Source: Prosthecomicrobium sp. N25
GTDB taxonomy: Bacteria > Pseudomonadota > Alphaproteobacteria > Rhizobiales > Ancalomicrobiaceae
Reading direction: 5' to 3'
NCBI RefSeq assembly: GCF_037203705.1
Contig: NZ_JBBCAT010000003.1
Coordinates: 186,001 to 250,000, forward strand
Length of the DNA: 64,000 nucleotides
This document shows, in pieces, positions 35,196-54,320 of this stretch (position 1 is its first letter; every line of letters starts with the position of its first letter). The notes beneath the pieces were generated by a model. That model was not told the origin of the DNA, searched no databases, and saw nothing but the letters and a program-made list of their open reading frames with translations. The translations under genes and the position numbers were made by a program.

Positions 35196-35285
35196 GCGCG
35201 TCTCGTCACTGGAGAAGCCGGAAGGGAACTTCGGGCCCCCTGCATCCGCGAGGACCGCTACCCCCGACCATCAGGCCCGTCCCCC

Positions 35286-35310: not shown

Positions 35311-35394
35311 AAGCGGAGAGGCGGGGTCGAGCGCCCTTCACCCTCCGCCTCCTCGCCATCCACGGTCGGAGCAGGAAGACGGCGCCCGCCGCGC

Positions 35395-37347: not shown

Positions 37348-37415
37348 GGATATGTCCTCCCGGAGGGGTGCCGGCGGCTTGACGCCGCGCGTTTTTGATG
37401 GAGGAACCATTCCAG

Positions 37416-37448
37416 ATCGTACATTATCTGTCAATTGTGATGTACGAT
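37416..37448. promoter_or_regulatory. GntR/FCD-type operator between the importer operon and its regulator
   Basis: A perfect 9-base inverted repeat ATCGTACAT (37416-37424) and ATGTACGAT (37440-37448) separated by 15 bases. On the minus strand TTGACA (37436-37431) lies between the arms and could be the -35 of the importer promoter, so binding would block it. The sequence is much richer in AT than its flanks. Confidence 0.65.
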
Positions 37449-37503
37449 GGCGCAGAAGTGGCCTGTGGCGCCTGCGGAAAGAAGGCCGGACGGAAAGACG
37501 CGG

Positions 37504-38232: not shown

Positions 38233-38377
38233 CCGACCCCTGACCCGCCTGTGCCCGATTGTCCACGCACGCCGGGAAGCCGTCCGCTGCCTGCCGATCC
38301 ATCATTCGGGGCATTGAAATTCGCCTGGATTTCGGCAGGCTTGTTCTGTCCTGACCATCGATCGACCCGGAACGGCC

Positions 38378-39025
38378 ATGAGCATCGGCGCCCAGCAGCG
38401 TGAAATCCTCCTGCGCGAGACGATGGCGCGGCTCGCAAGATCTTTGTTCGACCGCGGTTTCACGGTCGGCTCCTCGGGCAACATCAGCGTCGCCCTCGAA
38501 GACGGGCTGCTCATCACTCCGACGAATTCCTGCCTCGGCTTTCTCGACCCGGCGCGCATCTCCAAGATCGACCGCTTCGGCCGCCATGTCGCCGGCGATC
38601 CGCCGTCGAAGGAGATCTTCCTGCACCGCGCCTTCTACGAGACGCGCCCGGGCACCGGCGCCGTCGTGCACCTGCATTCCACCTACGCCACCGCGGTCTC
38701 CTGCCTCTCCGACGTCGACCCGGAGGACTGCATCCCGCCGCTCACCCCCTATGTCGTCATGCGGGTCGGCGCCGTGAAGCTGCTCCCCTATGTCCGGCCG
38801 GGGGACCCGGCGATGGGCGAGATGATCCGGGGCCTCCAGGGCTCGCACGCCTGCGTGCTGCTCGCCAACCACGGCCCGGTGGTCGCCGCCAGGGACCTGG
38901 AGAGCGCCGTCTTCGCCGCCGAGGAACTGGAGGAGACGGCGAGGCTCGTCGTCGTCCTGCGCGGCCAGCCGGTCCGCCGCCTCACCTACGAGCAGGTCCA
39001 GGAACTGAAGCAGGTCTTCGGCTGA
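38378..39025 (+). CDS. otnC: 3-oxo-tetronate 4-phosphate decarboxylase (OtnC), class II aldolase fold
   Basis: A 215-residue class II aldolase/adducin-family enzyme. SSGNISVALEDGLLITPTNSCLGFLDPARISKID and AVVHLHSTYATAVSCLSDVDPED (zinc His pair HLH) with ANHGPVVAA (third His) match OtnC, which decarboxylates 3-oxo-tetronate 4-phosphate in D-erythronate/L-threonate breakdown. The partner kinase OtnK and dehydrogenase are not in view, so the pathway may be completed elsewhere or the substrate may differ. It follows the GntR gene by 145 bases on the same strand; nearby sugar-acid genes fit the role. Confidence 0.82.
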   Translation: MSIGAQQREILLRETMARLARSLFDRGFTVGSSGNISVALEDGLLITPTNSCLGFLDPARISKIDRFGRHVAGDPPSKEIFLHRAFYETRPGTGAVVHLHSTYATAVSCLSDVDPEDCIPPLTPYVVMRVGAVKLLPYVRPGDPAMGEMIRGLQGSHACVLLANHGPVVAARDLESAVFAAEELEETARLVVVLRGQPVRRLTYEQVQELKQVFG

Positions 39026-39613: not shown

Positions 39614-41137
39614 ATGATCCTGCTGTCGCGCCGTACCGTCCTCGCCGCCGGGGCCGCCCTGCCCCTGACCCGCGTCCGCGCCTTCGCGGCCGCCCCGTCG
39701 AACGTCCTGCGCTTCGGCCTGTCCAGCTTCCCGCCGAGCCTGCAGCCCTGGGTCCACACCGGCACGGCGGCGCTGACCGTCAAGCTCCTGGTCTTCCGCG
39801 GCCTGACCGGCTTCGGTCCGGACGGCGAGGTCCGCCCCGAACTCGCGGAGAGCTGGGCGACCGAGGGCGCCACCACCTGGGTGTTCAAGCTGCGCAAGGC
39901 CGAGTTCTCCGACGGCCGGCCGGTGACATCCGAGGATGTCAAGTGGACCCTCGAGCAGATCGCCGCCGACGCCTCCACGGCCTTCCTGAAGAACGAATTC
40001 AAGGGCGTCGAGCGGATCGAGACGCCCGACCCGCAGACCGTCCGGATCACCATGCGGCAGCCGACCGTCACGCTGCCGGTCTGGCTCGCCAGCCCCCACG
40101 CCCCGATCATCGCCAAGGGCTCCACCGAGGGCGGTGCCCTCGGCATCGGCGCCGGCCCCTTCGTCATGAAGGGTCAGGAGCGCGGCGTCTCCATCGACGT
40201 GGTCGCCAATGAGAAATACTACAAGCCCGGCATGCCGAAGGTTGGCGCCATCAAGATCATCGCCTACGCGGACGAGAACCTGCGCGTGGCCGCCCTGCAG
40301 GCCGGCGACGTCGACCTGATCGAGTACGTGCCCTGGCAGCACATGGGCGCCATCGAGAAGGACCCGAAGCTGAAGCTCGACGCCGCCGACGGCCCCTTCA
40401 TGGCGCTGAACTTCAACGGCGAGACCGGCCCCTTCAAGGACAAGCGCCTGCGCCAGGCCGTCGCCTACGCGATCCGCCGGGAAGAGATCGTGGACGCCGC
40501 CTTCTTCGGCCGCGGCCGGCCGCTGACCGGGCTGCCGATCCCGCCCACGAGCCCCTACTTCAACGAGGCCGCCTCGAAATACTGGGGCTACGATCCGGAC
40601 AAGGCCAAGAAGCTGATGGCCGAGGCGGGCGTGCCAAAGGGCTTCGCCTGCACGCTCCTGTCGACCGCGCAATACGGCATGCACAAGTCGACCGCCGAGG
40701 TCGTCCAGGCCCATCTCTCCGAGATCGGCATCGACGTGAAGCTGAACCTGCCCGACTGGGCGACCCGCGTGAACCTCGGCAACAAGGGCCAGTACGAGTT
40801 CTGCGTCCAGGGCACGACCGCCGACAATAACGACCCGGACGGCCTCGCCCCGATCCTGAACGGCCAGCTCCCCCCCAGCGTGTCGCGCAGCTACGGCATC
40901 CCGACGCCGGAGATCGACGCCCTCTTCGCCAAGGGCCGCGCCGAGTTCGACATCGCCAAGCGCAAGGCCATCTACGCCGAACTCGAGAAGGTCGCGCTCG
41001 ACGCCGCCTCCCTGGTCGGCCTCGCCTGGCGCTCCCAGGGCTACGGCATGGTCAAGTCCCTGACGGGCTTCAAGAGCCTCCCCGGGGGCACCAACTTCTT
41101 CTCCGGCTACCTGCTCGAACAGGCCTCCCTCGGCTGA
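39614..41137 (+). CDS. ABC transporter substrate-binding protein, family 5 (Tat-type signal)
   Basis: A 507-residue periplasmic protein. The start LSRRTVLAAGAALPL is a twin-arginine signal. Core features: TWVFKLRKAEFSDGRPVTSEDVKWTLEQI and RQAVAYAIRREEIVDAAFFGRG, as in dipeptide-binding proteins. GGAGG lies eight bases before ATG 39614 and a strong terminator follows the stop, so it is a one-gene unit. No permease lies next to it; the permease and ATPase genes at 49.4-53.1 kb lack a binding protein, and both promoters carry the same GntR-type operator, so they very likely form one importer. Confidence 0.88.
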   Translation: MILLSRRTVLAAGAALPLTRVRAFAAAPSNVLRFGLSSFPPSLQPWVHTGTAALTVKLLVFRGLTGFGPDGEVRPELAESWATEGATTWVFKLRKAEFSDGRPVTSEDVKWTLEQIAADASTAFLKNEFKGVERIETPDPQTVRITMRQPTVTLPVWLASPHAPIIAKGSTEGGALGIGAGPFVMKGQERGVSIDVVANEKYYKPGMPKVGAIKIIAYADENLRVAALQAGDVDLIEYVPWQHMGAIEKDPKLKLDAADGPFMALNFNGETGPFKDKRLRQAVAYAIRREEIVDAAFFGRGRPLTGLPIPPTSPYFNEAASKYWGYDPDKAKKLMAEAGVPKGFACTLLSTAQYGMHKSTAEVVQAHLSEIGIDVKLNLPDWATRVNLGNKGQYEFCVQGTTADNNDPDGLAPILNGQLPPSVSRSYGIPTPEIDALFAKGRAEFDIAKRKAIYAELEKVALDAASLVGLAWRSQGYGMVKSLTGFKSLPGGTNFFSGYLLEQASLG

Positions 41138-41162
41138 GCCGCCCCCGATCCGCGAAGCCTCG

Positions 41163-41190
41163 GGCCGCTCCTCCAGGGAGCGGCCTTTTT
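41163..41190 (+). terminator. Rho-independent terminator after the binding-protein gene
   Basis: Stem GGCCGCTC (41163-41170) and GAGCGGCC (41178-41185), with a further C-G pair inside, followed by TTTTT (41186-41190). It lies 26 bases after the stop codon at 41137. Confidence 0.85.
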
Positions 41191-41475
41191 CTTCAGGCCG
41201 GTGTCCCGGGTTCTGACGCGCCTTGTCCGGGGATGCGGGCGGAGACGTGGAGCCGAACTAACAACCCCCTTTAGGGCCGACCCCAAGGCACATCCTCTCC
41301 CCCGCATCCCCGGCCGAAGCGCCGGGGGCCAGCGCATTCTGCAGGGTGAGGGCCGGGCCTCCCGCAATGCCCGCCACGCCCGTCATCCCCGCACCCGCTG
41401 GACCCCGGATCTGCGGCGCATTCCGCGCCTTGCCCGGGATGCGGAGGAACGTCCGGGGATAGAGGGGAGAGGTCG
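41191..41475. repeat. Non-coding gap with dispersed repeat sequence
   Basis: Between the terminator and the FAD oxidoreductase gene. It holds the second copy (41297-41321) of the 25-base repeat found at 35286-35310, followed by GCCGGGGG that can fold back on the preceding CCCCGGC, and a segment of ATCCCGG/CCGGGAT type elements common in high-GC alphaproteobacterial spacers. No gene seen. Confidence 0.5.
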
Positions 41476-42807
41476 CTACGCCGCGCGGCCCACGCCAATG
41501 GTGCGGGCCAGCCTCGGGAAGCGTTCGGGGCGGTAGGGGAGCGGGTCGACGATGGGCTTGGCACCGGTGACGAGGTCGGCGACGAGGTGGCCGGCGCCCG
41601 GGCCGATGCCGAAGCCGTGGCCGGAGAAGCCGCTGGCGATGAGGAGGCCGGGATAGCGCGGCACCCAGCCGATGACCGGGACCGCGTCCGGCATGGCGTC
41701 GACGAGGCCGCCCCAGGCGCCCGCCACCCGGGCCTCCGCGAAGGCCGGGAAGGCGGCCTTCACGTTGGCGAGGCCCTCGTCGAGGAGGCCCTGGGAGGGC
41801 TCGGGATCGAGCGCGCGCACCTGCTCGAAAGGCGTCCGCTCGTCGAGTTGCCAGCGCCGCGCCAGGCTCGCCTCCTCGATGAAGCGGCGGCCGACCCTGA
41901 GCCGCAGCTCGCCACGCTGCTTGACGAGCGAGGGGAAGAAGTCGGCGAAGAGCCGGAAGCTGTCCGGCACCACCTCGGCGACGCTGGCGTTGCGGCGCGC
42001 CACCGAATAGCCGCCGTCGAGCCGCTTGCGGAAGGCGAAGTCGGAGCCCCCGACCGCCAGAGTCGGCGGCCCCTCCAGCGGCTCGGTGCGCAGGACCGAG
42101 CCGAGCAGCTTGAGCTGCGGGAAGTCGATGCCGAGGTTGCCGAGAAACAGGCGCGACCAGGCGCCGCCGGCGAGCACCACCGTCGAGCAGGCGATCGCCC
42201 CCCGCTCGGTCACCACGCCCGAGACCTGGCCGGCCTTGGTCTCCAGCCCGCGGACCGCGCAGTTGGTCAGGATCCGCGCCCCGAACCGGCGCGCCACCTC
42301 GGCCATCGCCGGGACCGCCTTCTGGGGCTCGGCCCGGGCGTCCGCCGGCGTGTAGAGCCCGCCCACGAAACGCCGCCGCACCCCGGGGATCAGGGCCTCG
42401 AGCTGAGCGCCGCGCAGCACCCGCGACTCGATGCCGTAGATCTTGGCATGGTCGAGCCAAGCGACCTGGGCCGCGAGTTCCTTCTCGGTGTCGGCCACGT
42501 AGAGGATGCCGGCGCGCCGGAAGCCGAGCTCCGCATTGGTCAGCTCGCTCATCTTCTCCCAGAGCGTCTGGCTGACGAGCCCGAGCGGAATCTCGCCCGG
42601 ATCGCGCCCCATGACGCGCACCCAACCCCAGTTCCGCCCGGACTGCTCCTGCGCGATGCCGCCCTTCTCGCAGAGCGTCACCTCGACCCCCCGCAACGCC
42701 AGGAACAGCGCCGTGGTCACGCCGATGATGCCGCCGCCGATCACGACGACCTCGGACTTGGCGGGCAGTTCGGCGTCCCCCTCGAAGGGGTCAATGGTGA
42801 TGCGCAT
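41476..42807 (-). CDS. FAD-dependent oxidoreductase (DadA/amine-oxidase-like)
   Basis: A 443-residue flavoprotein. VVVIGGGIIGVTTALFLALRGVEVTLCEKG is the FAD-binding beta-alpha-beta motif (about 20-50), QSGRNWGWVR is typical of DAO-family oxidases, and the C-terminal GFSGHGFGIGPGAGHLVADL closes the FAD site. The family oxidises amines, D-amino acids or secondary amines such as glycated amino acids. GAGGAACACCG precedes ATG 42807. It is downstream of the UTRA-GntR gene by 29 bases, so regulator and enzyme are co-transcribed. An Amadori-type secondary amine is an attractive substrate given the neighbours, but this is not shown by sequence. Confidence 0.82.
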   Translation of the reverse strand: MRITIDPFEGDAELPAKSEVVVIGGGIIGVTTALFLALRGVEVTLCEKGGIAQEQSGRNWGWVRVMGRDPGEIPLGLVSQTLWEKMSELTNAELGFRRAGILYVADTEKELAAQVAWLDHAKIYGIESRVLRGAQLEALIPGVRRRFVGGLYTPADARAEPQKAVPAMAEVARRFGARILTNCAVRGLETKAGQVSGVVTERGAIACSTVVLAGGAWSRLFLGNLGIDFPQLKLLGSVLRTEPLEGPPTLAVGGSDFAFRKRLDGGYSVARRNASVAEVVPDSFRLFADFFPSLVKQRGELRLRVGRRFIEEASLARRWQLDERTPFEQVRALDPEPSQGLLDEGLANVKAAFPAFAEARVAGAWGGLVDAMPDAVPVIGWVPRYPGLLIASGFSGHGFGIGPGAGHLVADLVTGAKPIVDPLPYRPERFPRLARTIGVGRAA

Positions 42808-42836
42808 CGGTGTTCCTCGGCGGATGGAAGGAAGGC

Positions 42837-43580
42837 TCAGCCGGGCGGCGTCGCCCGGAAGACCACATGGGCGGGATGGTTGACGGACTTCATGTACTCG
42901 ACCGGCCGCCCCTCCCCGTCGCGCGCGACGAGGCGCATGACGAGGGTGGGCGAACCAGGCTCCAGGCCGAGGAGCCGGCCCTCCAGGTCGGCCGCCGGCG
43001 CGGCGCTGATCTCCCGCTCGGAGGCCGAGGCCTCGACCCCGTAGCGGCCGCGCAGGAGCCCGTAGAGCGACTGCCCGGCGACCAGGTCCTCCGCCACCAG
43101 GTCGGGAAAGCGCGCCGCCGGCAGGTAGCTGGTCTCGATGCAGAAGGGCATGTCGTTCACGGTCCACAGCCGCCGGCACATGAGGAGCTCCGTCCCGACC
43201 GGCACCTTCAGCCGCTGGGCCGTCGTCTCCTTGGCGCTCGCCATGCCGAAATGCAGGAGCTTGTTGCCGGGCGTCCCGCCCGCGGCGAGCACGATCCGGG
43301 CGATGCCCCCGGCGGGCTGCATGTCGATCGGACGGGCGACCTGCGGCAGCGGCAGGCGCGTGCCGCTCGTCGAGTTGCGCTCCAGAACGCCGCGCTCGAC
43401 CAGCTTGTCGATGGCCTTGCGGACGGTCATGCGGTTGACCCCGAGGGTCTCGGCGAGCGTCCGCTCCGACGGCACCTTGTCGCCGGGTCCGAAATCCGGG
43501 CCGCTGATCAGATCCAGGATGTAGTCCTGGATCTGCACGTAGACCGGCTTTCGGGACCCCTCCTCGTCGCGCTGCAGCAT
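42837..43580 (-). CDS. GntR-family regulator with UTRA domain (HutC/FrlR type)
   Basis: A 247-residue regulator. The winged helix (about 12-75) has GPDFGPGDKVPSERTLAETLGVNRMTVRKAIDKLVERGVLER, and the UTRA ligand domain follows (about 95-240) with LLMCRRLWTVNDMPFCIETSYLP. UTRA regulators sense phosphorylated sugars or similar intermediates. AGGA lies eight bases before ATG 43580. It is divergent from the deglycase operon, and TGGTATA half-sites lie both in that promoter and about 35 bases before its own start (minus strand at 43623-43617), so it probably controls both directions. Confidence 0.9.
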   Translation of the reverse strand: MLQRDEEGSRKPVYVQIQDYILDLISGPDFGPGDKVPSERTLAETLGVNRMTVRKAIDKLVERGVLERNSTSGTRLPLPQVARPIDMQPAGGIARIVLAAGGTPGNKLLHFGMASAKETTAQRLKVPVGTELLMCRRLWTVNDMPFCIETSYLPAARFPDLVAEDLVAGQSLYGLLRGRYGVEASASEREISAAPAADLEGRLLGLEPGSPTLVMRLVARDGEGRPVEYMKSVNHPAHVVFRATPPG

Positions 43581-43683
43581 GACCGGTTTCCTGGCGATTC
43601 TCCGCAAGCTTCGCACTATACCAGCACTTTCCCGGTGCAGTGCCGCACGCATTTCCGGCCTCTTCGGACGGGCTTGACAGCCA

Positions 43684-43711
43684 ATTGGTATAGGTGTTGG
43701 TATACTCCAAT
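43684..43711. promoter_or_regulatory. UTRA-GntR operator candidate before the deglycase operon
   Basis: Contains TTGGTATACTCCAA (43697-43710), matching 39559-39574, and a degenerate upstream copy ATTGGTATAGG (43684-43694). TTGACA at 43674-43679 lies just before it. The region is the divergent promoter of the GntR/UTRA gene and the frlB-like gene. Confidence 0.7.
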
Positions 43712-43741
43712 CACCCGGCCCGATCCAGCGGAAACATCCGA

Positions 43742-44755
43742 ATGTCCATCGCCTACGATGCGCCTGCGACCCTGGCCGGATTCGACCAGACCCGCCGCCA
43801 GCTCGCCGACGCCTACGCCCTCGGCCGATCGCTGGCAGGCGACGTCGACCGCATCCACTTCGTCGCCTGCGGCTCGGCGAACCGCGCCATGCGGGGCCTC
43901 GCATGGTGGATCGAGCATCTCTCTCCGAGCCTGGAGGTGAAACGGTCGTTCCCCGCCGAGTTCATGGCCCAGGACCCGCGGCGTCTCGACGGGCGCACCC
44001 TGGTCTTCCTCGCGTCCAAGTCGGGCAACACGCCCGAGACGGTCGCGGCGGCCGGCTTCCTGAAGGACCGCCCCGCCAAGGTCGTGGCCTTCTCGCAATT
44101 CGCCGACCGCCCGCTCGCCCGCGAGGTCGGGACCACCTTCCTGGTCGGCGACACGGCCGAATCCTTCACCGCCATGGCGATGCTGATGCATGCCCTCGTC
44201 GCAGGTCTGCTCGCCGAACGCGACGGCTGGACCGAGGCCGGGAATCTGATGGCCGGGCTCGACGCCCTGCCGGCGGCCGTCTGCCAGGCCGCCGTGGCCA
44301 ACGACGCCCGGGCGGCGCGCGACGCCGAGGCGTTCCGGGACGACGACCGCATCTACCACGTCGCCTCCGGCCCGGGCTTCACCACCGCTTACGTGTTCGG
44401 CGTCTGCATCCTCATGGAGATGCTCTGGCTCCACAGCTATCCGATCGACGCCGCCGAGTTCTTCCACGGCCCCTTCGAGATCGTGGACAAGCAGACGCCG
44501 CTCGTCCTCCTCATGGGCGAGGACCCGACCCGGCCGATCATGGACCGCGTCGAGCGCTTCTGCGACACCTATGCGGAACGCGTCATGAAATACGACAGCC
44601 GCGTCTACCCGATGCCCGGCGTGCCGGCGTCGGCCCGGCCGATCCTCGCCCCCTACGTGCTGCAGGCGGCGCTGAAGCGCTACGCCGCGCACCTCTCCGT
44701 GCTCCGCGACCAGCCCCTGAGCACGCGCCGCTACATGTGGAAGGTGGCCTACTGA
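43742..44755 (+). CDS. frlB: SIS-domain sugar-phosphate deglycase, FrlB-like
   Basis: A 337-residue protein with two SIS domains. DRIHFVACGSANRAM, FLASKSGNTPETV, MEMLWLHSYPIDAAEFFHGPFEIV and the C-terminal RRYMWKVAY parallel E. coli FrlB, which splits fructoselysine 6-phosphate into lysine and glucose 6-phosphate; the Glu and His in EFFHGPFE fit its catalytic pair. The start at ATG 43742 has GGAAA upstream. The next gene encodes a FrlD-like kinase, so the two-step Amadori pathway (phosphorylate, then deglycate) is present. The amino-acid part of the substrate is not determined. Confidence 0.8.
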   Translation: MSIAYDAPATLAGFDQTRRQLADAYALGRSLAGDVDRIHFVACGSANRAMRGLAWWIEHLSPSLEVKRSFPAEFMAQDPRRLDGRTLVFLASKSGNTPETVAAAGFLKDRPAKVVAFSQFADRPLAREVGTTFLVGDTAESFTAMAMLMHALVAGLLAERDGWTEAGNLMAGLDALPAAVCQAAVANDARAARDAEAFRDDDRIYHVASGPGFTTAYVFGVCILMEMLWLHSYPIDAAEFFHGPFEIVDKQTPLVLLMGEDPTRPIMDRVERFCDTYAERVMKYDSRVYPMPGVPASARPILAPYVLQAALKRYAAHLSVLRDQPLSTRRYMWKVAY

Positions 44756-44765
44756 GCCGGAGCGG

Positions 44766-45635
44766 ATGGTCGTGGCGAAGCCCCTGAAGATCCTCGGCCT
44801 GGGTGACAACACGGTCGACACCTATGTCGACCTCGGCCTGCAGTTCCCGGGCGGCAACGCGGTCAATGTCGCGGTCCTGGCCCGGCGCCTCGGCTGCGAG
44901 ACCGCCTACATGGGCTGCCTCGGCTCGGATTCGACGGCCGCCGTGATCGAGACGGCACTCCGGGACGAGGACGTCGACCTCGCGCGCTGCCGCCGCCGGC
45001 CCGGGCCGAACGCCCGCGTGCTCATCGCACACAACGAGGGCGACCGCCGCTTCGTCCGCTCCTCGCCGGGCGTCCGCGGCGCGTGGGGTGGCTTCGACGC
45101 GGCGGACCTCGCCTATGTCGGCAGCTTCGACCACGTCCACACCAGCATCTACAGCGAGCTCGGCTCGGCCCTGCCGGCGATCGGTCGGGTCGCCCGCAGC
45201 CTCTCCTTCGACTACTCCGAGCGCTGGACCCCGGAGAACCTGGCCGCCACCCTGCCCGATGTGGGCATCGCCTTCCTGTCCTACCCCAAGGTGGCCGAGG
45301 CCGAGTGCCGTCGGCTCGCCGAGGACTGCGCCGCGCGAGGCCCCCGCATCGTCGTCGTGACCCGCGGCCTGGACGGTTCGGTCGCCCTGGTCGACGGCGA
45401 ATGGCACCGGGGCGGCGTCGTGCCGACCGAGGTGGTCGACACGCTGGGCGCCGGCGACGGCTTCATCACCGCCTTCCTCGTTTCGCGGCTCTGCGGCCGC
45501 ACCGTGCCCGAAGCCCTGATGGCCGGCGCCGCCCATGCGGCGTCCGTCTGCCGCTACCGGGGCGCCTTCGGTCACGGCTCCCCCTGGACCTCCGGCGAGC
45601 ATCTGGAACAAGGTGCCGCGAGCATGGGAACCTGA
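44766..45635 (+). CDS. frlD: PfkB-family kinase, fructoselysine 6-kinase (FrlD)-like
   Basis: A 289-residue ribokinase-like kinase. ILGLGDNTVDTYVDLGLQ and FPGGNAVNVAVLARRLG match the FrlD N-terminus (GDNxVDxY and GGNAVNVAV), and VDTLGAGDGFITAFL is the PfkB signature with the catalytic Asp. It would phosphorylate the sugar C6 of an imported glycated amino acid before the FrlB-like deglycase acts. CCGGAGCGG precedes ATG 44766, ten bases after the deglycase stop; the next gene begins three bases after its own stop. Other PfkB substrates are possible, but the pairing with the FrlB-like gene is strong. Confidence 0.8.
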   Translation: MVVAKPLKILGLGDNTVDTYVDLGLQFPGGNAVNVAVLARRLGCETAYMGCLGSDSTAAVIETALRDEDVDLARCRRRPGPNARVLIAHNEGDRRFVRSSPGVRGAWGGFDAADLAYVGSFDHVHTSIYSELGSALPAIGRVARSLSFDYSERWTPENLAATLPDVGIAFLSYPKVAEAECRRLAEDCAARGPRIVVVTRGLDGSVALVDGEWHRGGVVPTEVVDTLGAGDGFITAFLVSRLCGRTVPEALMAGAAHAASVCRYRGAFGHGSPWTSGEHLEQGAASMGT

Positions 45636-45638
45636 GAC

Positions 45639-47690
45639 ATGGCTTGGCGCATCGGCATCGATTCCGGCGGCACTTTCACGGACGTCTGTCTGTTCGACGA
45701 CGCGACCGGCCGCGTCGAGGTCTGGAAGGTGCCCTCCACGCCCGACGACCCGTCCCGCGCCATCGCGCGCGGCACCGAGGAGGGCCTCGCCCGCGTCGGC
45801 GCCGGGGCGGCGGACGTCGTCTATTTCGGCCACGGCACGACCGTCGCCACCAACGCGCTGATCCAGCATCGGGGCGTGAAGACCGGGCTTCTCACCACCG
45901 CCGGCTTCCGCGACCTCATCGAGATCGGCCGCCAGAAGCGGCCCGAGCTCTACGACCTGCAGGCCGACAAGGCCCCGGCGCTCGTCACCCGCGACCTGCG
46001 CATCGAGGTCGGCGAGCGCCTGCGCCATGACGGCTCGGTCATGACGCCCCTCGACGAGGCCGCCGTCCGCGCCGCCGCCCTGACCCTGAAGGCCGCCGGC
46101 GTGAAGGCCGTGGCGATCGGGTTCCTTTACGGCTTCGTCCGCCCCGACCACGAGGTCCGCGCCCGGGCCATCGTCGAGGAGGTCTTCCCCGACGCCTTCG
46201 TGTGCGCCTCCCACGAGGTCGCCCCCGAATTCCGCGAGTACGAGCGGATCTCCACCGCCGTCGTGAACGCCTATCTGGGCCCGGTCATGCACGGCTACAT
46301 CCGCCGGCTCGCCGCCCGCCTCGCCGAGCTCGGAATCGCGGTCGCCCCGCACCTGACCCAGTCCAACGGCGGCGTCATCGGCTTCGACGCGGCCGCGCGC
46401 CTGCCGGTCCGCACCGTCCTCTCCGGTCCCTCCACTGGGGTGGTCGCCGGCCAGGCGCTCGGCGTCATGACGGGTATCCCCGACCTGATCACCTTCGACA
46501 TGGGCGGCACGTCGAGCGACGTCGCGCTCCTGAAGAACGGGGTCGCGGGCCTCGCCAGCGACGCGACCGTGCACGGCTATCCGATCAAGGCGCCGATGCT
46601 CGACATCCACACGGTCGGCGCCGGCGGCGGCTCGATCGCCCACATCGACTCCGGCGGCCTCCTGAAGGTCGGCCCGCGCTCGGCCGGCGCCGACCCCGGC
46701 CCTGTCTGCTACGACCGCGGCAACACCGAGCCGACCGTCACGGACGCCAACGTGGTGCTCCAGACCCTGAACCCGCAGGAACTCCTCGGCGGCCGCATGA
46801 AGATCCGCCAGGATCTCGCTGTGGCCGCGGTGAAGCGCCTCGCCGAACAGCTCGGCATGGACCCGATGGAGACCGCGCAGGGCATCGTCTCGGTGGTCAC
46901 CGCCAACATGGCGAAGGCGATCCGGGTGATCAGCGTCCAGCGCGGCCACGACCCGCGCGACTACACCCTCGTCGCCTTCGGGGGCGCCGGCCCGGTCCAC
47001 GCCGCCCGGCTCGCCCGCGAGCTCGACATGAAGCGCATCCTGGTGCCGAGGAATCCCGGCATCGGCTGCGCCCTCGGCCTGCTGCTGACCGACCTGCGCG
47101 CCAATTTCGCCACCACCCGCCTGATGACCCTCGCCGCGGGCCTCGAGTCCGAGATCGGCGGAATCTTCGAGGGCCTCGCCGCCGAGGCGGGCCACTGGTT
47201 CGACGAGGAGGCCGTGGCGTCGGCCGACCGCCGGCTCCGCCGCACGGTCGACATGCGCTACCGGGGCCAGAACTACGAACTCGCCATCGACGTCCCCGAC
47301 GGCCCGGTTGGCCCCGCCACCCTGGCGGCGCTCGCGGACGGCTTCGCGGCCGCCCACAAGCGCCTCTACGGCTTCGTCGCCGCCGAGGAGGCCGTGCAGC
47401 TCGTCACCTTCCGGGTCGAGGCCATCGGCTTCGTGCCGAAGGCCGAGTTCAAGCCCGAGCCCGACGCCGGCCCGGACGCCTCCGCGGCGAAGATGGGCGA
47501 GCGCGAGGTGTGGTTCCCCGAGGCCCACGGCTTCGTGCGCGTGACCGTGTACGACCGCGAGAAGCTGAAGCCCGGCAACCGCATCGTCGGCCCCGCCATC
47601 GTCGAGCAGATGGACGCCACCACGGTCCTGCTGCCCAACATGACCGCCCATGTCGAGCCCTACCTCAACCTGATCCTGGAGACGCTCTGA
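45639..47690 (+). CDS. hyuA: Hydantoinase/oxoprolinase subunit A (HyuA)
   Basis: A 683-residue ATP-dependent cyclic-amide hydrolase subunit. WRIGIDSGGTFTDVCLFD is the N-terminal actin-like phosphate loop, GHGTTVATNALIQH and ITFDMGGTSSDVAL complete the ATPase fold. Together with subunit B the family opens five-membered lactams such as hydantoins or 5-oxoproline using ATP. It starts three bases after the kinase gene and overlaps hyuB by one base (TGATG). Placing this enzyme in a deglycase operon is unusual. Confidence 0.9.
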   Translation: MAWRIGIDSGGTFTDVCLFDDATGRVEVWKVPSTPDDPSRAIARGTEEGLARVGAGAADVVYFGHGTTVATNALIQHRGVKTGLLTTAGFRDLIEIGRQKRPELYDLQADKAPALVTRDLRIEVGERLRHDGSVMTPLDEAAVRAAALTLKAAGVKAVAIGFLYGFVRPDHEVRARAIVEEVFPDAFVCASHEVAPEFREYERISTAVVNAYLGPVMHGYIRRLAARLAELGIAVAPHLTQSNGGVIGFDAAARLPVRTVLSGPSTGVVAGQALGVMTGIPDLITFDMGGTSSDVALLKNGVAGLASDATVHGYPIKAPMLDIHTVGAGGGSIAHIDSGGLLKVGPRSAGADPGPVCYDRGNTEPTVTDANVVLQTLNPQELLGGRMKIRQDLAVAAVKRLAEQLGMDPMETAQGIVSVVTANMAKAIRVISVQRGHDPRDYTLVAFGGAGPVHAARLARELDMKRILVPRNPGIGCALGLLLTDLRANFATTRLMTLAAGLESEIGGIFEGLAAEAGHWFDEEAVASADRRLRRTVDMRYRGQNYELAIDVPDGPVGPATLAALADGFAAAHKRLYGFVAAEEAVQLVTFRVEAIGFVPKAEFKPEPDAGPDASAAKMGEREVWFPEAHGFVRVTVYDREKLKPGNRIVGPAIVEQMDATTVLLPNMTAHVEPYLNLILETL

Positions 47691-49312
47691 TGCACGCCCC
47701 GCGACCGGAGCCCGTGGCCGTCGACCCGATCACCGTCGAGGTGATCGGCAGCGCCTTCTCGTCGATCACCGAGGAGATGGGCGAGGCGCTGGTCAAGGCC
47801 AGCTACTCCACGAACATCAAGGAGCGGCGCGACTGCTCCACCGCCCTCTTCGACCTGGACGGCACGACCCTCTGCCAGGCCGAGCACATCCCCATGCACC
47901 TCGGCAGCTTCATCGGCATCATCCCGCACATCCTGAAGCGCCATGCGGTCGCCGACATGCGCTCCGGCGACGTCTTCATCGGCAACGACGCCTACGAGGG
48001 CGGCGGCACGCACCTGCCCGACATCGTCCTCGCCGAGCCGATCTTCCACGACGGCGTCATGGTCGCCTGGGCGGTCAACACCGCCCACCACGCCGACTTC
48101 GCCGACCGCGGCCACGCCCACATCTTCCAGGAGGGCATCCGCATCCCGCCGATCCGCCTCTACCGGGCCGGCGAGCTCTTGACCGACGTCCAGGAGCTGA
48201 TCCTGCTGAACTGCCAGGTCCCGCGCGAGCGCCTGTCGGACCTGCGCGCCCAGATGGCCGCGAACCGGATGGGCGTCGAGCGCGTCGGGGCGCTTTGCGA
48301 CAAGTACGGCCGCGACGTCGTGCTCGCCGCCGGCCGCGCCCTGCAGGACTATGCCGAGCGCAAGATGCGCGCCGGCATCGCCGCGATTCCGGACGGCACC
48401 TACCGCTTCGCCGACCGCTTCGACGGCCCGGAGATCGAGGGCGACATTGAGTTCAAGGTCGAGATCACCGTGCGGGGCGACGAGATGCATCTGCATTTCG
48501 ACAGCCCCAGGCAGGTCCGCGCCGGCTTCAACATGGTCTATACCGCGCTGCTCTCGACCGTCTACTACGCGGTCAAGACCGTGGTCGACCCGACCATCCC
48601 GCCGAATTCCGGCCTCGCCCGCCCGCTGACCGTCACGGCGCCCGAAGGCACCGTGCTGAACTGCAAGTCGCCCGCCGCCGTCAACGGCCGCATCGCGCCC
48701 TGCCAGCGCGTCGTCGACCTGATCCACGGCGCCCTCGCCCAGGCGGTTCCCGACCGCGTCATCGCCGCCTGCAACGGCGCCTGCGCGTCGGCCGTCTTCG
48801 TCGGCGAGATGCCCGGCACCGGCGACCTCTGGGTCTACCTGGAGACGATCGGCGGCGGCTCCGGGGCCCGGCCGAACAAGGACGGCCTCGACGGCGTGCA
48901 CGTGCACATGACCAACACCTCGAACCTGCCCGTCGAGGCGCTGGAGGTCGAGTATCCGCTGACCGTCGTGCGCTACGAGCTCGTCGACGGCTCCGGCGGC
49001 CGCGGCCGCCAGCGCGGCGGCATGGGGCTGCGCCGCGTCTACCGCGCCGAGGCGCCCTGCCGGGTCGACATCGACGGCTCGCGATTTCACACGCGGCCCT
49101 GGGGCCTCGCCGGGGGCGAGCCGGGCGCAGGCGGCGCCTTCGAGTTCGGCGAGGGCGTCGGCCCGTTCCGGCGCGGCGAGGGTACGCTGGAGCCGGGCCA
49201 GACGGTCGGCATCGTCACCCCCGGCGCGGGCGGCTACGGCCCCTACGCGGAGCGCGACCCGGCCGCCGTCGAGCGCGACCGCGCCGAGCGCCGCATGCTT
49301 GAAGGAGCGTGA
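47690..49312 (+). CDS. hyuB: Hydantoinase/oxoprolinase subunit B (HyuB)
   Basis: A 540-residue subunit. DPITVEVIGSAFSSITEEMGEALVKASYSTNIKERRDCSTALFD is the standard HyuB N-terminus, GNDAYEGGGTHLPDI and NTAHHADF (His-rich) form the probable metal-binding active site, and the C-terminal DGSGGRGRQRGGMGLRR is conserved. ATG 47690 overlaps the hyuA stop. An 84-base gap leads to the ABC permease genes on the same strand. The lactam substrate is unknown; a lactam released from, or still bound to, a sugar is inferred. Confidence 0.9.
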   Translation: MHAPRPEPVAVDPITVEVIGSAFSSITEEMGEALVKASYSTNIKERRDCSTALFDLDGTTLCQAEHIPMHLGSFIGIIPHILKRHAVADMRSGDVFIGNDAYEGGGTHLPDIVLAEPIFHDGVMVAWAVNTAHHADFADRGHAHIFQEGIRIPPIRLYRAGELLTDVQELILLNCQVPRERLSDLRAQMAANRMGVERVGALCDKYGRDVVLAAGRALQDYAERKMRAGIAAIPDGTYRFADRFDGPEIEGDIEFKVEITVRGDEMHLHFDSPRQVRAGFNMVYTALLSTVYYAVKTVVDPTIPPNSGLARPLTVTAPEGTVLNCKSPAAVNGRIAPCQRVVDLIHGALAQAVPDRVIAACNGACASAVFVGEMPGTGDLWVYLETIGGGSGARPNKDGLDGVHVHMTNTSNLPVEALEVEYPLTVVRYELVDGSGGRGRQRGGMGLRRVYRAEAPCRVDIDGSRFHTRPWGLAGGEPGAGGAFEFGEGVGPFRRGEGTLEPGQTVGIVTPGAGGYGPYAERDPAAVERDRAERRMLEGA

Positions 49313-49396
49313 GCGGATGCCGGGCGTGGCCGCACTGAAGCACCGTCGGCCGCGCCCCGGCCCCGCCGCCGCATCCTCGAGGACGGGAGCCCGCGC

Positions 49397-50344
49397 GTGA
49401 TCTGGCTCGGCAAACGCCTCCTGACGGCGGTCTTCCTGGTCTGGGCTGTGGCGACGCTGGTCTTCCTGGCGATCCACCTCGTGCCCGGCGATCCCGCCGA
49501 ACTTCTGCTTGCCCAGCAGGGCGGCTCGCCGGACCCGAGCGCCGTCGCGGCCCTGAAGGCGCAACTCGGGCTCGACCGGCCCGTGCTGGTCCAATACGCC
49601 GACGCCATGCTGCGGCTCGTCCGCGGCGACCTCGGCGCCTCGCTGCGCGACGGCACGCCCGTCACCGCCCAGATCGCCCTGCGGCTGCCGCGCACCCTGG
49701 AGCTGATCGGCGCCGCCGGGCTGATCGCGGTCCTTCTCGGCATCCCGATCGGCACGCTCGCGGCCGTCAACCGCGACCGCCCCTTCGACCGCATCGTCTC
49801 CGGCTTCGCCGGCCTCACCCTGGCGGTCCCGGTCTTCGTCCTCGGCACGCTCTGCATCATGGTCTTCGCCCAGTGGCTCCGCTGGGTGCCGGCGGGCGGC
49901 TACGTGCCCTTCGCGCAGGACCCGGGCAAGCACCTCCTGCTCCTCTCCATGCCGGCGCTCTGCATCGGCCTCGGTCTCGCCGGCATGGTCACGCGCATGA
50001 CCCGCACGGCGGTCCTCGACGTCATGGCCCGCGACTTCGTCCGCACCGCCCGCGCCAAGGGCCTGCGCGGCACGCCCATCCTGGTCCACCACGTGCTGCG
50101 CAACGCGCTCATTCCGGTCGTCACCGTGCTGGCCCTGAACCTCGGGGGCCTGCTCGGCGGCACCGTGCTGGTGGAGTTCGTCTTCAACTGGCCGGGCCTC
50201 TCCGGCTATCTGGTCAGCGCCGTCGGCGCGCGCGACTATCCCGAGGTGGTCGGCATCATCCTGGTGATCTCGATCCTCTTCGTCCTCCTCAACATCCTGG
50301 TCGACATGGTCTATGTCGCGCTCGACCCGAGGGTGCGCCAATGA
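49397..50344 (+). CDS. ABC transporter permease, DppB-like
   Basis: A 315-residue protein with six helices, beginning MIWLGKRLLTAVFLVWAVATLVF, and carrying the EAA loop VRTARAKGLRGTPILVHHVLRNALIPVV. The start is GTG 49397 with GGGAG upstream. The stop overlaps the start of the permease-ATPase fusion gene. It has no binding protein beside it; the one at 39.6 kb, under the same operator, is the probable partner. Confidence 0.88.
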   Translation: MIWLGKRLLTAVFLVWAVATLVFLAIHLVPGDPAELLLAQQGGSPDPSAVAALKAQLGLDRPVLVQYADAMLRLVRGDLGASLRDGTPVTAQIALRLPRTLELIGAAGLIAVLLGIPIGTLAAVNRDRPFDRIVSGFAGLTLAVPVFVLGTLCIMVFAQWLRWVPAGGYVPFAQDPGKHLLLLSMPALCIGLGLAGMVTRMTRTAVLDVMARDFVRTARAKGLRGTPILVHHVLRNALIPVVTVLALNLGGLLGGTVLVEFVFNWPGLSGYLVSAVGARDYPEVVGIILVISILFVLLNILVDMVYVALDPRVRQ

Positions 50345-52164
50345 GGAGCCGCTTTCCCTGGGTCGCCGCCCTCCTGCTCGTCCTGCTGATCGGCCTCGCC
50401 CTGGCGGCCCCCTACCTGCCGCTCCAGAACCCCGTGCGCATGAGCGTGCCGAAGCGCATGGCCCCGCCGAGCTGGGATTTCCCGCTCGGCAACGACGAGT
50501 TCGGCCGCGACGTCCTCTCCCGCATCGTCTGGGGCGCGCGCGCCTCGCTGCTCGTCGCCTTCGCGTCCGCCGCAATCGCCTCGGTCGTCGGCACCGCCCT
50601 CGGCGTGCTCGGCGGCTACCTGCGGGGCACCACCGAATTCATGGCGCTGCGCTTCGTCGACGTCCTCCTCTGCTTCCCGCCCCTGCTCCTCGCGCTGCTG
50701 GTTGTCACCCTGCTCGGCCCCGGCGTCGGCACGCTCATCCCGGTCCTCGCGCTGGTCTTCATCCCGGGCTTCACGCGCGTCGCCTATGCGGGCGTCCTCT
50801 CCGTCCGCAGCCACGAATATGTCGAGGCCGTGCGCGCCCTCGGCGCCGGTCCGGGGCGGATCATGTGGCGGACGGTGCTGCCCAACATCGGCGGGCCGAT
50901 CCTGGTCCAGTTCAGCCTCGTCACCGCGACCGCCGTCGTGCTGGAATCCGGCCTCTCCTTCCTGGGCCTCGGCGTGGTGCCGCCGGCGCCGTCCTGGGGC
51001 CTGATGATCGGGTCGGCGCGGGCCACCATGACGCAGCAACCGCTCCTGCTGCTCTGGCCCTGCCTCGCGCTGACGCTGACGATCCTGATCATGAACGCGC
51101 TCTGCGACGGCCTGCGCGACCTCTTCGACCCGCATCCCGAGCCCGCCTCGCTCTGGGGCCGCCTGACCGGCCTCCGCCCCGCCACGGACCCGGCGGCGCC
51201 CGCGCCGGCCCTCCTCGACATCCGCGACCTGACCCTCGAGATCCCCGCCGCCGACTACACGATCCGCCCCGTCCGCGACCTGTCGCTGCATGTCGCCCGG
51301 GGCGAGACGCTGGCGATCGTCGGCGAATCCGGGTCCGGCAAGTCGCTGACCGGTCTCGCCGTCATGGGCCTGCTGCCGGCCGTGGTCCGCCCCGCCGCCG
51401 GCTCGATCCGCTTCGACGGCCGCGAACTCCTCGACCTCGACGAGGCCGCCCTCGCCGACCTGCGCGGACGGTCGGTGGCTATGATCTTCCAGGACCCGAT
51501 GTCGAGCCTGAACCCGGTCCACCGGGTCGGCGACCAGATCGCCGAGGCGATCCTGGCCCATGGCCGGCTCGGCCGCGGCGCGGCGATGCGCAAGGCCGTC
51601 GACCTGATGGCGAGCGTCGGCATCCCGGACCCGGAGACACGTGCCCGTGCCTTTCCGCACGAGCTCTCCGGCGGCATGCGCCAGCGCGTCATGATCGCCA
51701 TGGCGATCGCCAACGACCCCGTGCTGCTGATCGCCGACGAGCCCACCACCGCGCTCGACGTCACCATCCAGGCGCAGGTGCTCGAGCTGCTCGCGGACCT
51801 GAAGACGCGCCTCGACTTGGCGATGATCTTCGTCAGCCACAGCCTGCCCGTGGTCGCCTCCATCGCCGACCGGGTCGTCGTCCTCTACGCCGGCGAACTG
51901 GTCGAGGAGGGCCCGACCGCCGCGGTCTTCGCCCGCCCGCGCCACCCCTACACGGCCGCCCTGCTGGCGAGCGCCCCGGACGACAGCGGCCGCGCCCCGA
52001 AGCCGATCGAGGGGACCGTGCCGGCCCCCAACGAGATCCCGCCGGGCTGCGTCTTCGCCCCGCGCTGCGCGCTCCGCGTCGCCGCCTGCGAGGCGAGCCG
52101 GCCCGCCCTGGAGTCCCCGGCCGAGGGCCGGGTGACCCGCTGCCTGCGCTGGAGGGACCTGTGA
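50341..52164 (+). CDS. ABC permease-ATPase fusion (DppC-DppD)
   Basis: A 607-residue fusion. Residues 1 to about 270 are a DppC-type permease (GNDEFGRDVLSRIVWGARASL, EAA loop LGAGPGRIMWRTVLPNIGG), and about 285-607 an OppD-type ATPase with [56 protein letters not shown] and a four-cysteine tail CVFAPRCALRVAAC. No stop or frameshift separates them, and the joining segment GLRPATDPAAPAPALLDI is a natural linker. Such fusions are known but uncommon. ATG 50341 overlaps the DppB stop; the stop overlaps the next ATPase GTG. Confidence 0.9.
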   Translation: MRSRFPWVAALLLVLLIGLALAAPYLPLQNPVRMSVPKRMAPPSWDFPLGNDEFGRDVLSRIVWGARASLLVAFASAAIASVVGTALGVLGGYLRGTTEFMALRFVDVLLCFPPLLLALLVVTLLGPGVGTLIPVLALVFIPGFTRVAYAGVLSVRSHEYVEAVRALGAGPGRIMWRTVLPNIGGPILVQFSLVTATAVVLESGLSFLGLGVVPPAPSWGLMIGSARATMTQQPLLLLWPCLALTLTILIMNALCDGLRDLFDPHPEPASLWGRLTGLRPATDPAAPAPALLDIRDLTLEIPAADYTIRPVRDLSLHVARGETLAIVGESGSGKSLTGLAVMGLLPAVVRPAAGSIRFDGRELLDLDEAALADLRGRSVAMIFQDPMSSLNPVHRVGDQIAEAILAHGRLGRGAAMRKAVDLMASVGIPDPETRARAFPHELSGGMRQRVMIAMAIANDPVLLIADEPTTALDVTIQAQVLELLADLKTRLDLAMIFVSHSLPVVASIADRVVVLYAGELVEEGPTAAVFARPRHPYTAALLASAPDDSGRAPKPIEGTVPAPNEIPPGCVFAPRCALRVAACEASRPALESPAEGRVTRCLRWRDL

Positions 52165-53147
52165 GCGAGCCGCTCGTCCGCGCCGACAAGCTCTCCCGCG
52201 CCTTCCCGGCCCGCGGCGGCCTGCCGCTCTTCGGCAAGCGGCGGTCGATCCGCGCCGTGACCGACGTCGACTTGACCGTCGCCCGCGGCGAGACGGTCGG
52301 CCTCGTCGGCGAGAGCGGGTCCGGCAAGTCGACCATCGGCCGCATGGTGCTCGGTCTGTCACGCCCGACCGCCGGCACGGTCCGGTTCGACGGCATCGAC
52401 GTCGCCGCCGCCGACCCGGCGACCCTGCGGGCGCTGCGCCGGCGCATGCAGCTCGTCTTCCAGGATCCCTATTCGAGCCTCGACCCCCGCCGCCGCATCG
52501 GCGCGCAGATCGCCGACGGCCTCGATATCCACGGTCTCCTGCCGCCGAAGGATCGCCCCGCCCGGGTCGCCGAGCTCCTCGCCGCCGTCGGGCTGCGGCC
52601 GGAGCACGCCGAACGCCACGCCCATGCCTTCTCGGGCGGCCAGAGGCAGCGCATCGGCATCGCCCGCGCGCTCGCCACCAACCCGGACTTCATCGTCGCC
52701 GACGAGCCCGTCTCGGCGCTGGACGTCTCCGTTCAGGCCCAGGTCCTGGCCCTGCTGGAGGACCTGCGCGCCCGCCTCGGCCTCGCCATGCTGTTCATCA
52801 GCCACGACCTGCCGGCCGTCCGCCATCTCTGCGACCGCGTCGTGGTGCTCTACCTCGGGCGGGTGATGGAAGAGGGCCCGACCGCCGAGGTCTTCGGCAA
52901 TCCCCGCCACCCCTACACCCGCGCGCTCCTGTCCGCCGCCCCGTCGCTCGACCCCGCCCGCCGCCGCCGGCGCGACATCCTGATGGGCGAACCGCCGAGC
53001 CCCGCCGACCCGCCGTCCGGTTGCGTCTTCCGCACCCGCTGCCGCTTCGCGACCGCCGACTGCGCCGCCGTCGTGCCCCCGCTCGAGACGGTCGGCCCCG
53101 ACCACCGCGCCGCCTGCATCCGCCTGGACGCCGTCGGCGAAGCCTGA
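52161..53147 (+). CDS. ABC ATPase, DppF/OppF-like
   Basis: A 328-residue ATPase with [56 protein letters not shown] and a CVFRTRCRFATADC cysteine tail. The start is GTG 52161, overlapping the fusion-gene stop as GTGA. It completes the importer: DppB-like permease, DppC-D fusion, and this ATPase. The RidA-like gene follows 19 bases later. Confidence 0.9.
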   Translation: MSEPLVRADKLSRAFPARGGLPLFGKRRSIRAVTDVDLTVARGETVGLVGESGSGKSTIGRMVLGLSRPTAGTVRFDGIDVAAADPATLRALRRRMQLVFQDPYSSLDPRRRIGAQIADGLDIHGLLPPKDRPARVAELLAAVGLRPEHAERHAHAFSGGQRQRIGIARALATNPDFIVADEPVSALDVSVQAQVLALLEDLRARLGLAMLFISHDLPAVRHLCDRVVVLYLGRVMEEGPTAEVFGNPRHPYTRALLSAAPSLDPARRRRRDILMGEPPSPADPPSGCVFRTRCRFATADCAAVVPPLETVGPDHRAACIRLDAVGEA

Positions 53148-53166
53148 ACCCCGAGGAGAAAATCCC

Positions 53167-53592
53167 ATGGCCGAGATCGTCAAGGTCAAGTCGAACAGCA
53201 AGTACGAGGAGCTGATCGGCTATTCGCGCGTCGTCGTCGCCGGCGACACCATCTACGTCTCCAACACCGCTGGCCGCGACTACGGCACCCGCGAGATCGC
53301 CCCGGACGCCGCCGGACAGGCCCGCAAGGCCCTGAAGAACATCGAGGGCGCGCTCGCGTCGGTGGGGGCAGGCTTCAAGGACGTGGTCCGCTTCCGCGGC
53401 TTCGTACCCGATCCGGCCGACATGGAGGCCGTCAACGCGGTCTATGCCGAGGTCTTCAAGGGCATCGACCCGGCCTGCACCTGGACCTGCACGCCCCTCG
53501 CCCACCACGAGATGAAGGTCGAGTTCGAGGTGACGGCCTACCGCCGCCGGGATCCCGCCGCGCCCGAGGAGCGCCGCCGCATCACGCTCTGA
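53167..53592 (+). CDS. RidA/YjgF-family protein lacking the catalytic arginine
   Basis: A 141-residue Rid protein. VVVAGDTIYVSNTAGRDYG and FKDVVRFRGFVPDPADMEAVNAVYAEVF are typical of the family, trimeric proteins of which the RidA type hydrolyses reactive imines/enamines. The segment aligned with E. coli RidA PARSCV reads PACTWT, so the arginine that holds the substrate carboxylate is replaced by Cys, as in Rid subgroups of unknown activity. AGGAGAAAATCCC precedes ATG 53167. It shares the transcript with the importer and a downstream SDR, and may act on an imine made by the pathway's FAD oxidase. Confidence 0.85.
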   Translation: MAEIVKVKSNSKYEELIGYSRVVVAGDTIYVSNTAGRDYGTREIAPDAAGQARKALKNIEGALASVGAGFKDVVRFRGFVPDPADMEAVNAVYAEVFKGIDPACTWTCTPLAHHEMKVEFEVTAYRRRDPAAPEERRRITL

Positions 53593-53606
53593 ACGAGGAG
53601 GCCCGC

Positions 53607-54320
53607 ATGCTCGCTCCACAAGGCCGCGTCGCGCTGATCTCCGGCGCCAACCGGGGGATCGGCAAGGCGATCGCCGAGACCCTCCATGCCGACGGCTGGT
53701 CCGTCAGCCTCGGCGCCCGCGACCTTGGCTCGCTGCGGCGCCTGGCCGAAGGCTGGGACCCGACCCGCGTCCACTGCGCCGTCTATCGCGCGGAAGACTG
53801 GGCGACACACCGCGCCTGGGTGGCCGGGGCGGTCGCCCGCTTCGGCCGCATCGACGCGCTCGTCAACAACGCCGGCACGAACTCCACGGCCCGCATCCCC
53901 GACATCGCCCCGGAGGAGGTCGACCGCGTCTTCGCCGTCAACGTCAAGGGACCGCTCGGACTGACCCAGGCCGCCCTGCCCCACCTCGCCGCGAGCGGCA
54001 CCGGCCGGGTCCTCAACGTCGCCTCGCTGTCCGGCAAGCGCGTCCGCAACGACCACGTCGCCTACGGCATGTCCAAGTTCGCCCTGGTGGCGCTGACCCA
54101 CGCCACCCGCCGCCTCGGCTGGGCCGACGGCATCCGCGCCACGGCCCTCTGCCCGTCCTTCGTCGACACCGACATGGCGGCCGGGATGAACAAGCTGCCG
54201 GCCGCCGAGATGACGAGCCCCGCCGACCTCGCCCGCCTCGCCGCCACCCTCCTGAGCCTCCCCAACACCGCGACCGTCGCCGAACTCCTGGTCAACTGCC
54301 GCCTCGAGGACATGCTCTGA
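53607..54320 (+). CDS. Short-chain dehydrogenase/reductase
   Basis: A 237-residue classical SDR: cofactor loop SGANRGIGKAIAE (about 12-24), NNAGTNS after strand 4, a catalytic Ser in LNVASLSGK and YGMSK as the Tyr-Lys pair. It would oxidise or reduce a carbonyl in the pathway encoded by this operon. AACGAGGAGGCCCGC precedes ATG 53607. It is the last gene of the block; a terminator lies about 160 bases downstream. Substrate unknown. Confidence 0.88.
   Translation: MLAPQGRVALISGANRGIGKAIAETLHADGWSVSLGARDLGSLRRLAEGWDPTRVHCAVYRAEDWATHRAWVAGAVARFGRIDALVNNAGTNSTARIPDIAPEEVDRVFAVNVKGPLGLTQAALPHLAASGTGRVLNVASLSGKRVRNDHVAYGMSKFALVALTHATRRLGWADGIRATALCPSFVDTDMAAGMNKLPAAEMTSPADLARLAATLLSLPNTATVAELLVNCRLEDML

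Follow-up and report, generated by a model that had tools for sequence, protein, structure and literature searches.

To our knowledge, the described kinase/deglycase routes for Amadori compounds start from open fructosyl amino acids. The Amadori compounds of glutamate and glutamine readily form a lactam, and the kinase/deglycase enzymes should not be able to attack that form. Here we analyse a gene cluster in a 64 kb stretch of DNA from Prosthecomicrobium sp. N25 (contig NZ_JBBCAT010000003.1, positions 186,001 to 250,000; the whole stretch is referred to as the window), in which genes for a FrlB-like deglycase and a FrlD-like kinase stand together with genes for a HyuA/HyuB pair. The cluster (39614-54320) shares a PfkB kinase and an SIS deglycase with the Frl/Fra pathways (B. 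subtilis frlBONMD, E. coli frl and Salmonella fra) and, as we take it, a UTRA-GntR regulator (FrlR in those pathways), whereas those pathways, as far as we know, lack HyuAB and use a different transporter. Its predicted HyuAB pair is akin to caprolactamase CapAB and to 5-oxoprolinase/hydantoinase, ATP-dependent lactamases of two subunits, although the gene neighbourhood of capAB is presumably different. Judging from the sequence, we consider it somewhat more probable than the opposite that the genes of the cluster serve as an operon for breaking down a glycated lactam, with N-(1-deoxyfructosyl)-pyroglutamate as the likeliest candidate.

An earlier, sequence-only reading of this DNA had placed the kinase, the deglycase and HyuA/HyuB in one tight operon. 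This was borne out, as the frlB-, frlD-, hyuA- and hyuB-like genes form a single tight operon on the plus strand (43742-49312), with 10 bp between frlB and frlD, 3 bp between frlD and hyuA and a 1 bp overlap between hyuA and hyuB, and every named gene of the cluster is present with its reading frame intact. The oligopeptide-type ABC importer, RidA and short-chain dehydrogenase/reductase (SDR) genes described downstream of hyuB on the same strand, and the UTRA-GntR/FAD oxidase pair described as divergent from the operon, were likewise all located, and a gene for a family-5 binding protein lies beyond this pair.

The closest PDB match of FrlB is 3eua (202 bits), deposited as a putative fructose-aminoacid-6-phosphate deglycase. 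FrlB has the features expected of a single-SIS deglycase, namely a length of about 340 residues and a glutamate and a histidine spaced by 16 residues (E226 and H242), both of which are kept in all 41 aligned FrlB rows; we take them to be the equivalents of E214 and H230 of FraB, no text confirming those residues having been found. FrlD has a PfkB fold and a conserved GAGD motif, and its gene adjoins frlB. Conserved columns of the FrlB/FrlD alignment at FrlB residues 1-27, FrlD residues 2-5 and the FrlD tail from residue 273 are gap artefacts, and the statements made here on residues draw only on the GAGD motif and on residues read in each row separately. Fructosyl-glutamate is a standard type of substrate for FrlD and FrlB.

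The best relatives of HyuA among the NCBIfam models and PDB entries are caprolactamase, N-methylhydantoinase and 5-oxoprolinase. Its ATP-site aspartates, D8 and D287, are kept in 92 of 92 aligned rows, and the Asp-His-Asp-His metal site of HyuB (D48, H108, D111 and H133) in 27 of 27. These residues match those of CapAB by motif and near-equal spacing, the CapAB sequence itself lying outside the alignment, and the available text of one study describes mutations showing that the ATP-site and metal-site residues of CapAB matter (PMC8453981).

Close relatives of the pair are also found on opine plasmids. HyuA of the window is 66-68% identical to HyuA of the octopine-type NC_002377 (67%), the agropine-type pTiBo542 and pAoF64/95, and HyuB is 69-70% identical to HyuB on the same three plasmids. 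Relatives of the FAD oxidase (56-57%) stand beside HyuAB on each of them, and on pAoF64/95 and pTiBo542 the FAD oxidase and HyuA are preceded by an SDR of 52-53% identity, NC_002377 having only a 35% SDR. HyuA, HyuB and the FAD oxidase are thus found together on all three plasmids, with the SDR on two of them. The 22 kb stretches read from these plasmids gave no match to FrlB or FrlD, while on pAoF64/95 a relative of FrlB (34%) lies some 18 kb away from HyuA. A hydantoin-only reading of HyuAB was no longer favoured once the match to Ti-plasmid HyuA had been found. We take the HyuAB region of the opine plasmids to be the mannopinic/agropinic acid region (moa/aga), which Lyi, Jafri and Winans reportedly studied in 1999, and the substrate of its module to be an N-hexityl lactam. 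Agropinic acid is N-mannityl-pyroglutamate, the lactam formed by mannityl-glutamate; fructosyl-pyroglutamate is its Amadori counterpart.

According to the sequence-only reading, its proposal would fall if hyuAB and frlBD did not occur together elsewhere; they do. A search with FrlB of 150 genomes of the window's order and family gave 16 matches outside the window's own genome, all at 36% identity or less. Neither of the two same-genus genomes has a FrlB match at E 1e-20, and so there is no sign of descent within the genus. HyuA is the better probe for recurrence. When 385 genomes of the class were searched with HyuA at a threshold of E 1e-220, with at most three candidates scored per genome, four (the window's own included) had a match. 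One of these, the alphaproteobacterium G378 (L046), has the same divergent layout, with FAD oxidase and UTRA opposite FrlB-FrlD-HyuA-HyuB and the contig ending after HyuB (identities: UTRA 58%, FrlB 64%, FrlD 59%, HyuA 74%, HyuB 76%); in the stretches read from the other two, neither FrlB nor FrlD had a match. The core UTRA-FrlB-FrlD-HyuA-HyuB, present in G378, was found again in Bosea (L049; UTRA 70%, FrlB 67%, FrlD 62%, HyuA 82%, HyuB 83%), with the binding protein, FAD oxidase, RidA and SDR also at the locus, and, through a plasmid search, in Terrarubrum (L129/L138; UTRA 72%, FrlB 70%, FrlD 57%, HyuA 82%, HyuB 83%), where HyuAB lie about 10 kb downstream of FrlBD with the binding protein, RidA and SDR in between. 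A gamma-glutamyltransferase gene also lies near the Terrarubrum cluster (L129 4856-6451).

A scan of genome contigs for HyuA gave at least 80 loci, a sample in which the lengths of contig and flank govern whether a neighbour is detected. Of the 80 loci listed, 6 (L049, L077, L078, L084, L099 and L103) have FrlB no more than about 10 kb from HyuA, and at L075 FrlD stands at a contig end near HyuA. By a rough estimate from the 16 matches in 150 genomes of roughly 5 Mb, about 0.03 such loci would be expected at random, so the pairing is more than chance. FrlB and FrlD were found near HyuAB, with other gene orders and transporters, in Paenibacillus, Priestia, Bacillus, Halanaerobiales and Agrobacterium, the differently ordered pairings being L077, L078, L084, L099, L103 and Priestia L132. 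Around Paenibacillus a close HyuA is present in 11 of 296 genomes, the query genome counted; a FrlD-like kinase accompanies it at all 12 further loci, from 10 genomes (four of the kinases weak, at 187-200 bits), and FrlB lies within about 8 kb at nine, though with HyuA identities to the query running from 98% to 47% these loci are not all independent. The transporters of the various clusters are of Opp, sugar, TRAP or MFS type. Because gene order and transporters vary by clade, a functional tie of these enzymes, and not one inherited block, fits these observations.

In a HyuA tree of 92 rows, built by a quick method with likelihood support only, linkage to FrlBD needs at least five changes, and with starred branches alone no fewer than four gains or losses, which this tree does not distinguish, are required; the linked label, on 12 of the rows, includes L075 (FrlD only) and L026 (FrlB nearby, in a different operon). 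None of 500 label shuffles was as low, which shows clustering of the label only. The FrlB tree has 41 rows, 20 of them labelled as near HyuAB (the label omits the second FrlB of G130, L027, about 5 kb from HyuA), and here the fewest changes are seven, with at least three forced by starred branches; long branches meet in this tree, so it is used loosely. Within the nearest HyuAB clade frlBD are accessory, most of the close HyuAB relatives sampled being without them. The FAD oxidase is found at 45% identity or more in 13 of the 29 close HyuA loci listed, one of those 13 having FrlB. Four Bacillota loci (L080-L083), two of them from goat gut metagenome-assembled genomes, form a common HyuA clade; none of these loci, some of them short, gave a match to FrlB.

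The pathway that we infer, including its substrate, the order of its steps and the roles of the regulator, oxidase and SDR, would begin with import of fructosyl-pyroglutamate by the family-5 ABC system. HyuAB would then open the ring of this N-substituted 5-oxoproline at the expense of ATP to yield fructosyl-glutamate, FrlD would phosphorylate the sugar at C6, and FrlB would split the product into glucose-6-phosphate and glutamate. Ring opening would have to come first, because the lactam nitrogen cannot be expected to enter into the deglycase reaction. Loss of FrlB would be expected to turn the compound into a poison by way of its phosphorylated intermediate, an effect reported for fraB mutants of Salmonella (PMC4941530 and PMC12755824). 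The SDR, and the FAD oxidase together with RidA, probably form a second, opine-type route, oxidative or mannityl-linked, in which the SDR may interconvert mannityl- and fructosyl-glutamate while the FAD oxidase may cleave the C-N bond, with RidA clearing the imine. UTRA-GntR would control both directions from the central gap. The joining of Amadori deglycation to an ATP-dependent lactamase, as put forward by the sequence-only reading, gains support, and the fructosyl-pyroglutamate it named would be a sensible substrate. The accessible parts of PMC9127542 and PMC12114437 record the compound from Moringa leaves and from buckwheat honey, respectively, and 36 papers carry its name in one of six spellings; a second honey paper (PMC11395089) gives pyroglutamate and other fructosyl amino acids, fructosyl-pyroglutamate being absent from the text seen.

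A number of observations weigh against this pathway. FrlB scores 110 bits with the NCBIfam fructoselysine-6-P deglycase model (curated cut-off 430) and FrlD 179 bits with the fructoselysine 6-kinase model (cut-off 247), so both are family-level calls and not equivalogs, and HyuA reaches 628 bits with the caprolactamase model, for which the cut-off is 1000. Two of the 16 FrlB relatives mentioned above lie no more than 10 kb from HyuAB, in the single genome G130 (L026 and L027) and in neither case in an operon with it, and among the 29 listed loci with a HyuA identity of at least 56%, some of them cut by contig ends, one has FrlB. No OppB match was seen at the Bosea locus, and in Terrarubrum the best FAD oxidase in the stretches read is at 32%, FrlBD nonetheless being kept. 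Two Deinococcus plasmids (L130 and L131) carry FrlB (51-54%), a PfkB kinase, a GntR regulator and an ABC binding protein, with no HyuAB in the stretches read; this set is likely a plain Amadori operon, and since FrlBD stand there without HyuAB, they need not act on the product of a lactam. Some of the fructosyl-pyroglutamate detected by mass spectrometry may come from ring closure during extraction. Finally, that Ti HyuAB act on agropinic acid is itself a presumption.

Were agropinic acid the main substrate, HyuAB would convert it to mannopinic acid, the SDR would take this to fructosyl-glutamate and FrlD/FrlB would finish the route, making the cluster an opine-scavenging system. The likeness to the opine plasmids (HyuA 66-68%, FAD oxidase about 56%, SDR 52-53% on two of the three) points this way, as does the formation of an Amadori compound, deoxyfructosyl-glutamine, by mannopine oxidation, described in the accessible part of PMC4231840. 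Recurrence in Paenibacillus, Priestia and Halanaerobiales, however, would fit a common Amadori compound better, and with no SDR match seen in the loci of these three groups we regard the opine substrate as unlikely. The sequence-only reading had also offered a glycation-derived hydantoin or imidazolone, and nothing was found that favours either over an N-substituted pyroglutamate. The more general proposal, that HyuAB open another glycated ring (a hydantoin, a hydroimidazolone or a cyclised glycated dipeptide) for FrlBD to deglycate the product, draws on the N-methylhydantoinase and 5-oxoprolinase among the best PDB relatives of HyuA and on the peptide type of the importer; but the transporters vary between clusters and so lend a peptide no support, and, of the relatives for which a role has been proposed, the Ti-plasmid lactam systems are the nearest, which leaves this proposal decidedly improbable. 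That two functions merely share their control, with HyuAB recycling free 5-oxoproline or a non-glycated N-alkyl pyroglutamate and FrlBD taking ordinary fructosyl amino acids, would agree with the finding of each pair without the other, yet we give it very little credence, as the pairing spans distant HyuA clades with shuffled gene order and HyuAB in the Paenibacillus-area loci have a FrlD-like kinase nearby in 12 of 12 and FrlB in 9 of 12.

We return to fructosyl-pyroglutamate as the favoured substrate. No paper was found that pairs frlB with a hydantoinase, although the searches do not prove its absence from print; among the matches listed, the one co-mention of Amadori and hydantoinase is, in the text available, in a paper on glutathione in eye disease (PMC12189886). 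The sequence-only reading stated that it knew of no described pathway of this makeup, yet a partial precedent exists, as the part made up of HyuAB, FAD oxidase, SDR, RidA and ABC importer matches the opine-plasmid module. We also put forward, tentatively and a little short of even confidence, that HyuAB and FrlBD make up a pathway, widespread but so far undescribed, for Amadori compounds in their lactam form. It would have been assembled more than once, in Pseudomonadota and Bacillota and perhaps in Chloroflexota, in which FrlD alone was seen, near the end of a contig, and would be the source in the environment from which the Ti agropinic acid module came. If true, an enzyme pair that opens the lactam ahead of the kinase and deglycase would account for the bacterial recovery of this form from rotting plants and foods, one HyuAB clade annotated only as hydantoinase/oxoprolinase would gain a function, and opine catabolism would appear to have arisen from the use of natural Amadori compounds.

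Of the eight GGTATA/TATACC sites in the whole window, three fall in the 161 bases that separate the UTRA gene from frlB, and the tandem ones at 43685-43705 are probably the operator; a TGGTATA motif also precedes frlB in Bosea, Terrarubrum and G378. Relatives of the family-5 binding protein are found near HyuAB in Bosea (77%), Terrarubrum (79%) and G235 (61%), and its best NCBIfam model is GsiB (glutathione), at 165 bits, below the cut-off of 594. The best PDB match of the FAD oxidase is an L-amino acid deaminase, at 281 bits against about 22-23 bits for fructosyl amine oxidases, which weakens its candidacy as an amadoriase. RidA is 65% identical to its counterparts in Bosea and Terrarubrum and 52-53% to those on the three opine plasmids.

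Table 1. Features of the cluster, with window coordinates and supporting matches.
Feature	Position	Strand	Basis
Solute-binding protein, family 5 (importer)	39614..41137	+	Pfam SBP_bac_5 292 bits
FAD amine oxidase	41476..42807	-	DAO 246 bits; related to Ti-plasmid oxidase beside HyuAB
UTRA-GntR regulator	42837..43580	-	UTRA 111 bits, GntR 65 bits
Probable operator, tandem GGTATA sites	43685..43705	.	Sequence; extra inverted site 43617-43622
FrlB-like SIS deglycase (predicted)	43742..44755	+	SIS domain; best PDB 3eua 202 bits
FrlD-like PfkB kinase	44766..45635	+	PfkB 110 bits; GAGD motif kept
HyuA, ATP-dependent lactamase subunit (predicted)	45639..47690	+	Three Hydantoinase_A-type domains
HyuB, metal-binding lactamase subunit (predicted)	47690..49312	+	Hydantoinase_B 569 bits
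OppB-type permease	49397..50344	+	BPD_transp_1 137 bits
OppC permease fused to OppD ATPase	50341..52164	+	One 607-aa open reading frame: BPD_transp_1, ABC_tran, oligo_HPY
OppF ATPase	about 52161..53147	+	ABC_tran, oligo_HPY; start codon inferred, GTG at 52161
RidA-like imine deaminase (predicted)	53167..53592	+	Ribonuc_L-PSP 75.5 bits
SDR oxidoreductase	53607..54320	+	adh_short 147 bits

Base composition does not point to recent acquisition, the G+C content being 71.8% in the cluster and 70.9% in the remainder of the window. Outside the cluster, the minus strand carries another ABC set of the family-5/oligopeptide type, beside a mandelate-racemase-like gene, an FCD-type GntR gene and a homologue of 3-oxo-tetronate-4-phosphate decarboxylase (319.7 bits, above the cut-off of 250); these genes (29741-38211, minus strand; 37447-39025, plus strand) are probably a separate sugar-acid system. 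Elsewhere in the window, a gene for a KaiB-domain protein (20663-20977) adjoins one for an HWE-type PAS histidine kinase (19170-20666), and a short protein with RTX calcium-binding repeats is encoded at 26317-26982.

Among known systems, SocABCD constitute an oxidative route that, as far as we know, lacks FrlBD and HyuAB. In the accessible part of PMC4231840, SocABCD of A. tumefaciens pAtC58 serve the use of deoxyfructosyl-glutamine, which belongs to the same class of Amadori compounds. HyuAB pairs on Ti plasmids have been proposed to open succinamopine lactams (PMC6733357) and the rideopine lactam (PMC8554961), as stated in the available text of these papers, these being other Ti-plasmid pairs that lie outside the alignments used here. 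The module of the Ti plasmids and pAoF64/95 resembles the window in having HyuA, HyuB, an FAD oxidase, RidA and family-5 ABC importers, with an SDR on two of the three plasmids, and differs from it in that RidA adjoins a DeoR-type regulator. By its predicted genes, the cluster of the window combines two known modules, FrlBD and an opine-type HyuAB.

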